62,158 nt of DNA. Source: a virus. The position numbers and the translations under genes are program-made. The stretch spans positions 1 to 62,158 of IMG/VR virus record IMGVR_UViG_3300013113_000455; one strand, given 5' to 3'. Of the stretch, positions 11,133 to 26,703 are shown piece after piece (position 1 is the stretch's first letter; every line of letters begins with the position of its first letter). The notes below the pieces were generated by a model. That model was not told the DNA's origin. It did no database searches and saw only the letters and a program-made list of their open reading frames with translations.

Positions 11133-12362
11133 TTAATGTTGATTTAATCTGAAATCTGGATAAGCACTCATGCCATGCTCGGCACTGTCTAGTCCTTCAA
11201 GTTCTTCTCTTTTTGGAACTCTAAGTCCCATAATTTTCTTTATGGTAAATAGAATTAAGAAAGAACTAATTAGACAGAAAGCTCCGATTACGGCAACCCC
11301 TATAAGCTGTGTAAGAAATTGACTACCACTAGCTAATTCTCCGAAGATTCCTACTGCTAATGTTCCCCATATTCCACATCCAAGGTGAACAGCGATAGCA
11401 CCTACTGGATCATCTAGTTTAAGTTTGTCTAACAGAGCAACCGCAAAGACTACTATAATACCTCCAATAAGACCTACAACAACAGATTCGTTTGGACTCA
11501 TTTGGTCAGCACCTGCCGTAATAGCGACAAGTCCTCCTAAGATTCCGTTAAGAAACATTGTTAAGTCTAATGTCTTATTCTTAAGATAAGATGTAATAGC
11601 AGCTCCAAAACCTCCTGCTGCTGCCGCAAGGCAAGTAGTAACAAGAGTTAAAGAAGTTAATGCAGCGTCAGCACTTAAAACAGAACCTCCGTTAAATCCA
11701 AACCAACCTAGCCACAAGATTAATACTCCTGCCGTAGCAAAAGGAATATTGTGTCCTAGAATAGCAAAAGATTTACCCTCTTTAAACTTACCTAGTCTAG
11801 CACCAAGTAGCCATACAGCTACTAATGCAGCCCATCCTCCTACAGAGTGAACAAGAGTACTTCCAGCGAAGTCATAGAATCCCATATTATCAAGGAATCC
11901 TCCTCCCCACTTCCAGCTACCTACTATAGGGTATACAAGCCCTACATAGATAACGCTGAAAATCATAAAGCTACTAAGCTTAATTCTTTCAGCTACTGCT
12001 CCTGAGACAATTGTAGCAGCGGTTGCAGCGAACATTCCTTGGAACAAGAAATCAGTCCACCAAGTATAGCCACCGTCAGCATAATCGGCAGTCATTCCAT
12101 TTACAGGTGCATCAATTCCGAAACCTGCAAACTTAAGAACTCCCATGCTACCCTCTTCAAACCCAGGATACATGAGATTAAATCCTCCTATGTAATAGAC
12201 CAAAAGCCCCATACAAATAATGAAGATATTTTTGAACAGGATATTGATGGTATTTTTTTGTCTTGTCAGTCCTATCTCCAACAAGCTAAATCCTAAGTGC
12301 ATAAAGAACACCAAACCTGTACAGACCATCATCCACAGGTTATTTACTGTTAACATTTCCAT
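11133..12362 (-). CDS. amt: ammonium transporter
   Basis: 409 aa, full length for the Amt family, with about eleven membrane helices. The conduction twin histidines are present as H172 (in STLVHSVGG) and H326 (in AVHLGCG), with the conserved aspartate D164 just before. The C-terminal GLRVPKREELEG and EHGMSAYPD match the cytoplasmic tail that docks PII. The N-terminus lacks the usual proline-glycine after helix 1 and reads MHLGFSLLEIG, as in some Bacteroidetes Amt proteins. It imports ammonium through the inner membrane. PII lies 8 nt upstream, so channel and regulator are co-expressed. All key residues are intact. Confidence 0.93.
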   Translation of the reverse strand: MEMLTVNNLWMMVCTGLVFFMHLGFSLLEIGLTRQKNTINILFKNIFIICMGLLVYYIGGFNLMYPGFEEGSMGVLKFAGFGIDAPVNGMTADYADGGYTWWTDFLFQGMFAATAATIVSGAVAERIKLSSFMIFSVIYVGLVYPIVGSWKWGGGFLDNMGFYDFAGSTLVHSVGGWAALVAVWLLGARLGKFKEGKSFAILGHNIPFATAGVLILWLGWFGFNGGSVLSADAALTSLTLVTTCLAAAAGGFGAAITSYLKNKTLDLTMFLNGILGGLVAITAGADQMSPNESVVVGLIGGIIVVFAVALLDKLKLDDPVGAIAVHLGCGIWGTLAVGIFGELASGSQFLTQLIGVAVIGAFCLISSFLILFTIKKIMGLRVPKREELEGLDSAEHGMSAYPDFRLNQH

Positions 12363-14191: not shown

Positions 14192-14256
14192 GGTGGGTAA
14201 CACTGTATAAAAACAAGCTCGTACCTCACCAGATTTTTATACTCAACGTTAACAAG
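14192..14256 (-). repeat. integron-like attC site B
   Basis: Minus-strand reading: CTTGTTAAC (R'' side, overlapping the stop codon of the GroES-like gene), hairpin arms GTATAAAAA / TTTTTATAC (14205-14213 and 14234-14242, 9 bp perfect), loop with GAGGTACGAGCTTG, and GTTACCCACC (R' side), which opens the next cassette. The loop sequence matches site C. Confidence 0.65.
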
Positions 14257-14896
14257 TCTGAACACCAAAAATATCATCTTCATGGATAACCACATAATCT
14301 TCACCTTCTATCTTAAGATCAACAGCACCCAGAGGTTTAACAACAATCACATCACCTTTACTAACTTCATCAGCAATAAATCTTGAAGGAGCAACCACCT
14401 CTAATAAATCTTCTGTTTTTTTATTCTTAAGGTAGTCTGGAATTATTAAGGTTGTGGATTGAAATATGTTTTTATACTTCTTACAAATGGACCACTTGTG
14501 TATTGGGATTATCTCTCCGTCTACAATCTTACAATATGAGCTAGTAGCATACTTAGCAATCATATCCCTAAAGAACCGAAAGAAAAACTTACCGTCTTCT
14601 GTTCTTCTCTCAAAGTTCACTACATGATGATGAAAGTAAACAACATCACCTTCATCTATTTCATCCAGAGTTATTTGGTCTTTCTTAACCACACTACTAA
14701 GTCCTCTTGGTTTTCCTACTACTGTCCCCTTGTGAGGTATCAAAGAAGGATCTAAAGGAGCAGTGCCGTCTTCTTCCATTCTGGAGAATATAGTATCCAT
14801 GTAAAGCTCTACTTCTTTTTCTCCTAATTTTATGGTTTTTTTCAAATGCTGTTTTAGGTCAATATCAACAAGCATAAAATCTTTTACGTATATCAT
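14249..14896 (-). CDS. GroES-like co-chaperonin with an internal insertion
   Basis: 215 aa. The last 40 residues, KGDVIVVKPLGAVDLKIEGE followed by DYVVIHEDDIFGVQ, match the GroES C-terminal half (GDxVLxxxxxGxxVxxxGxEYxIxxExDIxAV). A similar half at the start contains a GDVVYFHHH strand. The middle 70 residues, including a basic FFFRFFRDMIAKY segment, are an insertion. The length is about twice GroES (97 aa), so it may be a phage co-chaperonin like T4 gp31 or a tandem/expanded form. Such proteins help fold the capsid protein with host GroEL. It sits just upstream of cassette array A/B, its stop codon in attC B. Confidence 0.6.
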   Translation of the reverse strand: MIYVKDFMLVDIDLKQHLKKTIKLGEKEVELYMDTIFSRMEEDGTAPLDPSLIPHKGTVVGKPRGLSSVVKKDQITLDEIDEGDVVYFHHHVVNFERRTEDGKFFFRFFRDMIAKYATSSYCKIVDGEIIPIHKWSICKKYKNIFQSTTLIIPDYLKNKKTEDLLEVVAPSRFIADEVSKGDVIVVKPLGAVDLKIEGEDYVVIHEDDIFGVQTC

Positions 14897-21633: not shown

Positions 21634-21647
21634 GATTAATTGTTTTT

Positions 21648-21665
21648 AAGGTTACACATTTATTA
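21648..21665 (-). repeat. intergenic repeat AAGGTTACACATTTATTA
   Basis: One of a family found between gene stops and next starts at 21648, 23024, 23704, 23997, 25331, 25939 and 26363, with a weaker copy at 26274. The minus-strand reading is TAATAAATGTGTAACCTT, beginning at the upstream gene's stop codon. Function unknown: regulator site, RNA processing element or cassette-boundary remnant. Confidence 0.7.
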
Positions 21666-22205
21666 TATGGCTCTATAATATATAAAAGCCTTTATCCTAT
21701 CACATATAGACTGTTCTAGTTCAGATGCCAGGTCATATCCGTTATTGCCTAAATTACCTAGGCAACCGTCTGAAAATATATTAAAATAAAACTCAGGTGT
21801 TAGTGTTTCGTATAGTCCTTCGTTAATCTTTCTTGATACAATAGATATATCTAGCCTTTGTCTTATCTCCAATTGTTTTACGCTTTCAGTATCTATTGTT
21901 TTATACATTTCAAAGCTAACTTTAACGTGGTTATTACCTTGTGTAAATTCAGCAAATGGAATCCTGTGTCCGTTGTCATCTACCCAATCAAAGTCACATC
22001 CTTCAATATCAGCTTCTGTTATCTTAGAATATATTTTACTGATTGTTTGTCTGAGCATATCTTCAAACTGGTTAAGAATAGTTTTATTGATCTTGTTAGC
22101 GGTTTCTTTTTTCTGTTCAATTTCAGAATGAGTTTTAGAAATTGTTGTGAAGATGTTGTCACTTGCAACATCTTGTTCTTCAAAATTTAAAATTATTGTT
22201 TTCAT
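21663..22205 (-). CDS. hypothetical takeover-region protein, 180 aa
   Basis: MKTIILNFEEQDVASDNIFT start, coiled-coil-like middle, GCDFDWVDDNGHRIPFAEF strand block and a helical end. First of the run of small genes each beginning MK after a CAATCATG-type leader. Family not recognised. Confidence 0.65.
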   Translation of the reverse strand: MKTIILNFEEQDVASDNIFTTISKTHSEIEQKKETANKINKTILNQFEDMLRQTISKIYSKITEADIEGCDFDWVDDNGHRIPFAEFTQGNNHVKVSFEMYKTIDTESVKQLEIRQRLDISIVSRKINEGLYETLTPEFYFNIFSDGCLGNLGNNGYDLASELEQSICDRIKAFIYYRAI

Positions 22206-23009: not shown

Positions 23010-23023
23010 GACTGTTTGTTTTT

Positions 23024-23042
23024 AAGGTTACACATTTATTAA
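23024..23042 (-). repeat. intergenic repeat, GGTTACACATTTA family
   Basis: Copy at the boundary between the 201-aa gene (stop inside the repeat) and the 47-aa gene start. Confidence 0.7.
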
Positions 23043-23644
23043 TATTGTTCTCCATCTTCTGTAAACTCATACTCATTAGCTATAATACTTTCCTCTATAG
23101 CTTCTCTAGAAGTATAGTACTCGTATTCTTGTTCTAGTGAATGGTATATCTTGTTACATATATCTTCGTAGTGTTCTCTTATTTCATATAAGATGTCTTC
23201 GCAGATGTCTTCTATATTAGAATAGTTCTTACCATACCAGTCATTAGTCATTTCAGCATCTAAGTTATCTGAATAACTTTTTGAATGGTAGTAATGTCCA
23301 TGATGTTTGAAGCTGCCGTATATGTTTATATCACCGTTTTTAATTAGCTTGATAACTCTGGACCAATTTTTTTGATATTGTTGGTTGTTATATCCTGGAG
23401 TTATGAAGTTTAGTATATCTTCGTTTGGTGATCCTTCAAACATAGCTCCATCACCTTGAGAGGCGAATCCACTGAAATATATTTTATCAATATCGAATCC
23501 TGTTTCATCTTCTTTGTACATTTCGTATACGTGTTCCCACCAATCATAATGTGTATTGATGTCGTGAAATTTCTCGATTGCTTTTTCTTGTGCTTTTTCA
23601 CTAAGTTCCTCGAACTTGTAAATTTTAATTGTTTCTGTTCTCAT
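23039..23644 (-). CDS. conserved phage protein, 201 aa
   Basis: MRTETIKIYKFEELSEKAQE start, with an AIEKFHDINTHYDWWEHVY helix and a FSGFASQGDGAMFEG motif. This combination (F-x-E-L-S-x-x-A-x-x-K-A, Y-D-W-W-E, GFxxQGDGA) recurs in many phages and has no assigned role. Its leader begins with GTTACACACTTAATTAA and its end carries the complementary repeat, as a gene cassette would. Confidence 0.75.
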   Translation of the reverse strand: MRTETIKIYKFEELSEKAQEKAIEKFHDINTHYDWWEHVYEMYKEDETGFDIDKIYFSGFASQGDGAMFEGSPNEDILNFITPGYNNQQYQKNWSRVIKLIKNGDINIYGSFKHHGHYYHSKSYSDNLDAEMTNDWYGKNYSNIEDICEDILYEIREHYEDICNKIYHSLEQEYEYYTSREAIEESIIANEYEFTEDGEQY

Positions 23645-23669
23645 GATATTTATATTTTATCCTCATTTA

Positions 23670-23719
23670 ATTAAGTGTGTAACCTTGAGCGAGGATGTTA
23701 CTCAAGGTCACACATTTAT
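23670..23719 (-). repeat. miniature attC-like hairpin of the GTTACACA family
   Basis: On the plus strand GTGTGTAACCTTGAG and CTCAAGGTCACACA pair with one A/C mismatch across an 11-nt loop. The minus strand reads R''-like TGTGTGAC, stem CTTGAG...CTCAAG, R'-like GTTACACA. The right-hand half is the start of the 23039-23644 unit, whose other end carries the matching repeat, so this looks like a short attC. Confidence 0.5.
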
Positions 23720-23721
23720 TA

Positions 23722-23982
23722 TTAGCAACAATTGCATTCACTCCAATCTTTACCATTACGGCAAGTGAGTCCCATAACAGAAGCAACGAATAGATATTCG
23801 TCAGTTCCAAAACAGTAGTATATGTCTATACCGTTCACTGTGTCTTCATATTGGATATTTGCAATTGTTTGTTCGTTGTAGTCTACTTCTGTCCAATCAA
23901 GGCTTTTAGCGTACTCTTTAGCTTTTTCAATTCCGTCGTATCCTGGGATACTTGCTTCAAAAAATTCTTCTGTAACTTTCAT
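23722..23982 (-). CDS. hypothetical takeover-region protein, 86 aa
   Basis: MKVTEEFFEASIPGYDGIEK start, VNGIDIYYCFGTDEYLFVA strand pair and a cysteine-rich end DWSECNCC. Unknown function. Confidence 0.6.
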   Translation of the reverse strand: MKVTEEFFEASIPGYDGIEKAKEYAKSLDWTEVDYNEQTIANIQYEDTVNGIDIYYCFGTDEYLFVASVMGLTCRNGKDWSECNCC

Positions 23983-23996
23983 GATTGATTTTTTTT

Positions 23997-24015
23997 AAGG
24001 TTACACATTTATTAA
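23997..24015 (-). repeat. intergenic repeat, GGTTACACATTTA family
   Basis: Overlaps the stop codon of the 237-aa gene and precedes the 86-aa gene start by a CAATCATG-type leader. Confidence 0.7.
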
Positions 24016-24725
24016 TAAACACAAGGATCTTCCATTATCATTAATTCAACTTCCCATCCTTGATTAGGTTTTACATTTTCTTCTAGCCAATCATTGTCAA
24101 CATATTCGTCTGAACCGTCTTTATGATTGTATAAACTAATTTCATTAGGGTATCTAATATCTATAGATAGGCTTTCACGTTTGTTATTATATAGTGTGTG
24201 TTCTACAAAGCCAGTTAAGAAGCCTTCTAGCTTGAATAGTTGTACGTCTGAGTACCCACCTCTGACATCAGCACCTAGATGAAGCTGCAATAATACGTAT
24301 GGTTCACCATCTATAGTAACCCACTGACCTTGGAATACGTGGTCTGTGTTGTATTCTCCGTTGTAAGTGTTCCATTGTTCACTTTTGAACTCTACCTCAT
24401 AATAATCTGAGAAAGTCGCTATATGGCCTTCTAAATCGTTTTCATCAACTTCTCCTACCCAATGTATATTGTTTTCACGTAGGTATTCATTTACAAATTC
24501 ACACACTTCGTCATATTCTAGTACTTTTTTGAAGTAATGGTAAGTGTTTATAGTTACGTATTGGAACTCATCATTCCAATATTCTATAGTCGCTTCAGGC
24601 TCTGACTCGAAGTCACGTTTTTGATTTTTTTGCCAAGCTCTACCGTCAGTTCCACCACTATCTAAAAGGTGTTTTCCTGTGTTTTCTGTAAAAAGTTCTT
24701 GTAATACTTGTTCTATTGTTTTCAT
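24012..24725 (-). CDS. conserved phage protein, 237 aa
   Basis: The block NTGKHLLDSGGTDGRAWQKN near residues 15-34 is a signature I associate with a widespread phage family of unknown function. Later NTDHVFQGQWVTIDGEPYVL and LHLGADVRGGYSDVQLF are also typical. Probably cytoplasmic. It overlaps the upstream stop (ATGA). Confidence 0.7.
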   Translation of the reverse strand: MKTIEQVLQELFTENTGKHLLDSGGTDGRAWQKNQKRDFESEPEATIEYWNDEFQYVTINTYHYFKKVLEYDEVCEFVNEYLRENNIHWVGEVDENDLEGHIATFSDYYEVEFKSEQWNTYNGEYNTDHVFQGQWVTIDGEPYVLLQLHLGADVRGGYSDVQLFKLEGFLTGFVEHTLYNNKRESLSIDIRYPNEISLYNHKDGSDEYVDNDWLEENVKPNQGWEVELMIMEDPCVY

Positions 24726-25316: not shown

Positions 25317-25330
25317 GATTGATTGTTTTT

Positions 25331-25350
25331 AAGGTCACACATTTATTATA
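25331..25350 (-). repeat. intergenic repeat, GGTCACACATTTA family
   Basis: AAGGTCACACATTTATTATA between the 96-aa start and the 101-aa stop codon. Confidence 0.7.
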
Positions 25351-25926: not shown

Positions 25927-25938
25927 GTTTTCAAATTT

Positions 25939-25954
25939 AAGGTTACACATTTAC
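25939..25954 (-). repeat. intergenic repeat, GGTTACACATTTA family
   Basis: Copy reading AAGGTTACACATTTAC, upstream of the 70-aa gene. Confidence 0.65.
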
Positions 25955-25967
25955 TCTAATTACCATT

Positions 25968-26252: not shown

Positions 26253-26294
26253 TTTGTTTGTTTTAGTTTGTGCAACGTCGCACATTTAATGTAG

Positions 26295-26352
26295 AAACCC
26301 TCTAGAGATTTGAACTCTACAAGAGACACCATATAAAATTTGTCTGAGGGTT
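26295..26352 (-). ncRNA. tRNA-like structure lacking a D-arm
   Basis: Minus strand, 58 nt. A 7-bp acceptor-like stem AACCCTC / GAGGGTT, a canonical T-arm (TAGAG, loop TTCAAAT, CTCTA) and a 5-bp AGACA / TGTCT arm with a 12-nt loop in place of the D and anticodon arms. No CCA end. May be a degenerate tRNA, an attachment-site remnant or a structured RNA. Confidence 0.4.
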
Positions 26353-26362
26353 TTAATTTAAC

Positions 26363-26392
26363 AAGGTGACACATTTAGAATAATGTCACCTT
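26363..26392. repeat. inverted copy of the GGTGACACATTTA motif
   Basis: AAGGTGACA (26363-26371) and TGTCACCTT (26384-26392) form a 9-bp stem, loop 12 nt. Last member of the repeat family before the promoters. Confidence 0.65.
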
Positions 26393-26538
26393 ATCAAATA
26401 ACATATATACTAATAAGCTATAATAAGCAATAAACACAAACCTAAAAACATTGGTTATTAATTAGGGCGTATTATTGCCGTCCTACTTATTAGATAAGTC
26501 TTAAACATTTCAGTATTTGTTGTGGTCCTCATCCGTAT

Positions 26539-26567
26539 CAAATCTACTAGCCTTTTCAAGATGTCAA
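26539..26567 (-). promoter_or_regulatory. Bacteroidetes-type promoter of the takeover operon (P1)
   Basis: Minus strand TTG (26565-26567, inside TTTTTTGACA), 18-nt spacer, TAGATTTG (26539-26546), a perfect TAnnTTTG. Lies just upstream of the tRNA-like element and the small-gene run. Confidence 0.6.
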
Positions 26568-26658: not shown

Positions 26659-26703
26659 AACGGGCAAAGGATTTGCACCTTTTTAAAGCACTGCGCGCCC
26701 GTT
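26659..26703 (-). ncRNA. second tRNA-like acceptor plus T-arm hairpin
   Basis: Minus strand. AACGGGC / GCCCGTT 7-bp stem enclosing AAAGG, loop TGCAAAT, CCTTT. It has the geometry of a tRNA acceptor and T-arm without D and anticodon arms. It might simply be a transcription terminator for the gene at 26714, though no T-run follows. Confidence 0.3.

Follow-up and report, generated by a model that had tools for sequence, protein, structure and literature searches.

A stem-loop before a small phage gene as a candidate mobile RNA leader of early accessory genes

What is a stem-loop of 14 base pairs doing between two small phage genes, and to which of its neighbours, if either, does it belong? The window analysed here is a virus record of 62,158 bases, of which a structural protein and the terminase-like protein are distant kin of those of the Flavobacterium elemo phages and Cellulophaga phages; judging from these relatives, the host would lie within the Bacteroidia. 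Genes between about 27.2 and 2.5 kb run leftward, those from roughly 28.0 kb up to the end rightward, and the hairpin (23676–23714, minus strand) lies in the leftward block, among clustered small genes without known function. From its position and gene content, this block is probably expressed early. Downstream of the hairpin is a 201-aa gene (23039–23644, minus strand; phrog_5162, function unknown), for whose product the AlphaFold2 model (pLDDT 43) was too poor for use. Upstream is an 86-aa gene (23722–23982, minus strand; phrog_33881, function unknown) whose downstream neighbour varies among relatives.

On the plus strand, 13 of the 14 positions of the arms TGTGTAACCTTGAG (23676–23689) and CTCAAGGTCACACA (23701–23714) pair, with an 11-nt loop (23690–23700) between the arms, which confirms the inverted repeat of 14 positions with one mismatch described in the initial annotation of this locus. 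Read on the minus strand, the left arm TGTGTGACCTTGAG (23714–23701), the loop TAACATCCTCG (23700–23690) and the right arm CTCAAGGTTACACA (23689–23676) form a stem 1 of 14 pairs in which the lone mismatch is a G·U wobble. The same annotation had the gene at 23039–23644 beginning and ending with matching motifs; both are present, but GTTACACACTTAATTAA lies about 27 nt before the ATG and is the right arm of the hairpin, not the gene start, and TTAATAAATGTGTAAC overlaps the stop codon (both in minus-strand sense). This is the sole 14-bp inverted repeat (at most one mismatch, spacer 3–30) in the whole window, and six first-order Markov windows held 4, 0, 0, 0, 0 and 0 of the same class. For the 66-nt minus-strand RNA the predicted fold has −23.4 kcal/mol, with a z of −6.7, and none of 200 shuffles did as well. 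Rfam returned no match beyond two below threshold, both to RNA families of animals. Taken alone, the hairpin is only mildly unusual, and the sequence by itself leaves chance possible; the case therefore rests on comparison.

The left arm links the hairpin to a family of repeats at gene borders, a connection already drawn in the initial annotation that stands up well. The intergenic repeat at 23703–23724 (minus strand), made of stop codons plus TAAATGTGTGACCTTG, follows on the upstream gene's stop and supplies the left arm, which is a copy of TAAATGTGTNACCTT. Stand-alone copies were found on the same strand at 21645–21667, 23994–24016, 25328–25350, 25936–25958 and, after the 201-aa gene, at 23021–23043, where 29 nt separate TAAATG from the next ATG. 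The plain repeat sits at the upstream stop codon, and the distance of 29 nt to the next ATG recurs at most stand-alone junctions. The motif TAAATGTG has 8 same-strand copies in 21.6–26.4 kb; over its full length the window contains 19 on the minus strand, several of them antisense to late genes, and 1 on the plus strand. As far as the available text describes the intergenic repeats of halovirus HF2, those of class II are 29 bp long, and the HF2 repeats are proven archaeal promoters (PMC8707807). The two families are alike in being short repeats in gene gaps, with 29 bp there and 29 nt here, and differ in that no host-type promoter is found at the repeats of the window.

The 201-aa protein is also encoded on three related contigs, L007, L008 and L009 (G001–G003; 92, 87 and 83% identity), and the window and these contigs together hold seven copies of the hairpin module, six of them outside the window. 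Four copies precede the 201-aa gene, one a 323-aa gene and two an 80-aa gene, and these three genes are unrelated. The layout is the same in all seven: the stop codon or codons, a slightly varying TAAATGTGTNACCTTGAG, TAAYATCCTCR, a slightly varying CTCAAGGTTACACA, a spacer of 9–11 nt, GAGGAT, 15–16 nt and ATG. In each, the left arm is a copy of TAAATGTGTNACCTT and the right arm is GGTTACACA. The stem arms and spacer vary between copies, stem 1 having two unpaired cells in each of three copies and one in a further copy; both hexamers are invariant in all seven. A mini-ORF in the left arm (ATGTGTGACCTTGAGTAA in the window) is open in 7/7 copies, its codons being unconserved by eye. When 22 records, many of them fragments, were searched with a model of the element (R2), the 7 training sites were recovered in 4 records; the closest distant match, a weak one in G013 (E 0.0019), is a different hairpin, and weaker matches in G004–G006 and G018 were taken as stand-alone repeats or chance. 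Pattern scans of IMG/VR returned only the three known contigs, with patterns that demand the known letters and so would miss diverged copies. The GenBank phages held no module by pattern scan, and three exact pattern matches in a genome collection, all in unrelated organisms, were taken as chance. A descriptor scan of the upstream regions of 881 ORFs returned 5 rows, which stand for 4 distinct leaders since one of them was assigned to two ORFs, versus 0.33 per control pass; the descriptor disallows two stem mismatches and thus misses the other 3 leaders. Literature searches on related phage leaders, tRNA-like elements and elemovirus repeats yielded nothing on this element among the matches listed.

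In all seven copies the loop hexamer AUCCUC (23691–23696, minus strand) can pair with GAGGAU (23659–23664, minus strand), which lies just 5' of the start region, and the two would form the 5' and 3' strands of a second stem in an H-type pseudoknot layout. We infer such a pseudoknot, with GAGGAU 15–16 nt ahead of the AUG. Some 5' leaders control translation through H-type pseudoknots, as do the T4 gene 32 leader and the preQ1-I riboswitch; the predicted structure resembles these in that a hairpin loop pairs with sequence just 5' of the start codon, and differs from them in its longer stem 1, its movement between unrelated genes and a host that does not use Shine-Dalgarno sequences. For six distinct pairs of loop and downstream sequence (the L009 201-aa leader equals that of L008 over this stretch and was omitted), the duplex is predicted at −9.0 to −11.6 kcal/mol, with 0.0003–0.002 of shuffles as good, figures that must not be multiplied because the seven copies are related and not independent. 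A run of at least 6 pairs between the loop and downstream sequence arises in 1–16% of shuffles. The proposed pseudoknot pairs do not vary among the seven copies. Counted over all copies, 95% of cells are paired and one pair is changed on both sides, a result equalled in 248 of 500 shuffles, so covariation lends the hairpin at 23676–23714 weak support. Cells with G·U outnumber those with A·C on the mRNA strand by 6 to 3 in this hairpin and by 6 to 1 in a sister hairpin described below, an excess that leans towards a minus-strand RNA.

Among 114 ORFs, GAGGA is found 15–16 nt before the ATG only with this hairpin, and a Shine-Dalgarno-like motif within 20 nt of the start precedes just 12 of the 114, in 7 cases as part of this leader and at an unusual spacing. 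According to the available text of one study, Bacteroidia ribosomes do not recognise Shine-Dalgarno sequences (PMC9976891), and for this reason and for its long spacing GAGGAU is unlikely to be a normal Shine-Dalgarno sequence. Given such ribosomes in the probable host and the rarity of these motifs in the ORFs here, it is best seen as the second strand of the pseudoknot.

Ownership of the hairpin was judged from gene order in five genomes (G000–G004), with gene calls that are simple ATG ORFs of at least 40 aa; G005, a near-copy of G004, was excluded, as were gaps longer than 200 nt, a limit that drops a single spurious hairpin match, located in a gap of 2458 nt in G002. The hairpin was kept with the downstream gene in 6/6 genome pairs whose upstream neighbours differ, and with the upstream gene in 1/6 genome pairs whose downstream neighbours differ; the six pairs reflect perhaps three independent events. 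As it follows the downstream and not the upstream gene, the hairpin looks like a 5' leader rather than a terminator. A plain terminator was also rejected for want of a U tract, the stem being followed by CTTAATTAAATGAGG; a scan for terminator-like sites that accepts loops of 3–8 nt did not include this hairpin with its 11-nt loop. The plain repeat tends the other way, staying with the upstream gene in 10/14 cases and with the downstream gene in 6/15 (the hairpin left arm counted as a repeat). The hairpin thus seems to have two owners, the left arm being the end repeat of the upstream gene, and the loop, right arm and GAGGAT travelling with the downstream gene.

The segment from loop to GAGGAT is identical at 40/40 positions before the 201-aa and 80-aa genes of G003, and at 41/42 positions before two unrelated genes in different genomes, the 323-aa gene in G001 and the 80-aa gene in G002. 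Yet where the downstream genes are orthologous, as are the 80-aa genes in G002 and G003 (proteins 86% identical), the leaders agree at only 30/42. Subtypes of the leader thus fail to track the genes behind them, and the leader itself therefore moves, or undergoes conversion, separately from the gene. The initial annotation had proposed a gene cassette and pointed to relatives lacking the gene as a check. One such relative exists: G004 retains the 86-aa gene (92%) and a 180-aa gene (84%), and the space between these two is filled by a plain repeat and a 150-aa gene; in the window this space holds the hairpin and the 201-aa, 47-aa, 98-aa and 106-aa genes. Another gene occupies the interval and no empty site is restored, so the difference is a replacement and not an excision. 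The cassette idea holds in that the unit of hairpin and gene has varying upstream neighbours, but gene order is no more broken at the repeats than elsewhere: neighbours were kept at 20/60 repeat gaps versus 16/65 other gaps in the accessory block (p = 0.33), and a first tally over the whole region (20/65 versus 64/178) likewise revealed no excess of rearrangement.

The explanation we favour, and to which we give an even chance, is that the hairpin acts in cis as an RNA leader in the mRNA of the early minus-strand operon, belonging to the downstream 201-aa gene, and that the same module has been placed before other early accessory genes. It would have reached them by recombination or gene conversion, inside single phages as well as among related ones. 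Pairing of AUCCUC with GAGGAU would fold the edge of the ribosome landing site and leave a rigid structure bordering the initiation site on its 5' side. Only a few nucleotides separate the left arm from the stop codon or codons of the upstream gene, so that a ribosome terminating on that gene would melt the stem and the leader would serve as a translational gate or coupler for the downstream gene; it might instead set mRNA processing or stability. Translational gating or coupling is the likeliest role, with both the pseudoknot and the coupling deduced from sequence. We suggest more tentatively that a mobile pseudoknot leader of this kind could serve as a plug-in part: since its left arm is the end repeat of any upstream gene, recombination in the repeat would rebuild the hairpin and couple a new gene to its neighbour's translation, in hosts whose ribosomes pass over Shine-Dalgarno sequences. 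Small genes come and go quickly in phage early regions, and how the newcomers come to be properly expressed is seldom known; a short leader travelling between unrelated genes would, if real, be a direct answer for Bacteroidia phages whose hosts do not use Shine-Dalgarno sequences.

The PeSL cassettes of T4-type phages are reportedly treated by Arbiol 2010 and Comeau 2014. In the available text of one source, PeSLs (promoter early stem-loops) are mobile regulatory cassettes of these phages (PMC4503421), and on this model the element would be a composite of stem-loop and promoter, the stem-loop ending or attenuating upstream transcripts and GAGGATAAAAT being part of an early promoter. To the extent that the source describes them, the two systems share a short intergenic regulatory unit with a stem-loop, an AT-rich stretch and then the gene, repeated before different small early genes of a fluid accessory region, and combinations of module and gene that vary between relatives, here with three unrelated downstream genes. 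A sigma-70-like match lies at 23683–23654 (minus strand), but it is weak (9/12), and no Bacteroidetes-type promoter accompanies it, the host-type pattern TTG-N17-23-TAnnTTTG being absent from every repeat; in contrast to the T4 cassettes, neither a promoter nor a terminator could be shown. Promoter-like sites number 40 versus 33.4 in shuffles (sd 5.0), no clear excess, and the stem is not followed by a U tract. Further differences from the T4 cassettes are a loop that can pair with sequence before the start codon, an unrelated podovirus-like phage and, as counted above, no excess of rearrangement at the units. The complementarity between loop and GAGGAU is left unexplained by this model, which we regard as rather unlikely.

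We also consider it unlikely that the hairpin serves RNA processing or stability, either as a double-stranded stem that RNase III would cut or as a 5' cap that would keep exonucleases off and set the amount of downstream mRNA. Its place between genes, among early genes that all run in one direction, would suit such a function, and the operon leader also carries a sister hairpin and tRNA-like structures. For RNase III, a 14-bp stem with internal mismatches is a short substrate, and mismatches occur in 4/7 copies; nor would the conserved loop hexamer be required.

The sister hairpin (26356–26399, minus strand), in which the repeat forms the right arm, covaries strongly in 5 relatives. Pairing extends to 92.3% of its cells, and 6/16 pairs are changed on both sides; in G003 the repeat inside it has changed together with its partner arm. 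Three of five measures (cells paired, cells with a double change and covariation score) were reached in 0/500 shuffles, and the remaining two, pairs with a double change and number of pair types, in 3/500 and 223/500. The tRNA-like structures in the early-operon leader, at 26659–26703 and 26296–26352 (minus strand) with equivalents in L007/L069, L008, L009 and L068, consist of a 7-bp acceptor stem and a 5-bp T arm with T-loop sequence and lack the usual anticodon arm. Seven distinct ones with differing stem sequences occur in the phage clade and 0 in a Markov control; the scan also gave normal-length tRNA-like matches in unrelated loci. ARAGORN and Rfam returned nothing at these structures, which might be processing signals or tRNA mimics. 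Between the first of them and the sister hairpin, at 26567, lies the sole minus-strand host-type promoter match (TTG-N17-23-TAnnTTTG) in 20.5–29.5 kb. Directly after the second, a further TAAATGTG copy (26269–26290, minus strand) may form a small hairpin, TGTGC-GACGTT-GCACA.

It is improbable that TAAATGTGTNACCTT is a protein operator or RNA-binding site for a phage regulator, stoperator- or antitermination-like, with the hairpin as its paired version. The repeat is directional, found at many junctions and on one strand throughout the early block, and alone it tends to follow the upstream gene, as such a site might; the loop and GAGGAT would be left without explanation, and no regulator has been identified.

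Integron attC sites have R boxes RYYYAAC and GTTRRRY. The initial annotation's suggestion of an attC-like or stripped-down integrase site fails on several counts, and a site-specific recombination site, of this kind or for the phage serine recombinase, is very improbable. Like attC, the locus has an imperfect inverted repeat at gene borders and a cassette-like arrangement, with flanking direct and inverted repeats and one relative without the gene. The arms GTGTAAC and GTTACAC depart from the core-box consensus in having C at position 5 of GTTRRRY; the 14 pairs, one of them G·U on the gene strand, are free of bulges and extrahelical bases, and the spacer is 11 nt. Within the phage records searched an integron integrase is wanting, with tyrosine recombinase PF00589 found in 0/5 of them and in 14/14 controls. 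A serine recombinase (PF00239; 15314–16009, minus strand) is present in 6/7 related records tested, but G004, its near-copy G005 and G013 have it without the module, and clean excision was nowhere seen. An IS200/IS605-type end hairpin was rejected, as a Y1 HUH transposase (PF01797) is found in 0/5 records.

A search for a bS21 gene gave 0/5 phage records. Elsewhere in the leftward block, a 215-aa protein with a C-terminal Cpn10 (GroES-like) domain is encoded at 14249–14896 (minus strand). An ammonium transporter of full length (11133–12362, minus strand; PF00909, E 2.5e-117) adjoins a porin-like protein (PF07642; 10105–11094), possibly as a phage-borne nutrient-uptake pair.
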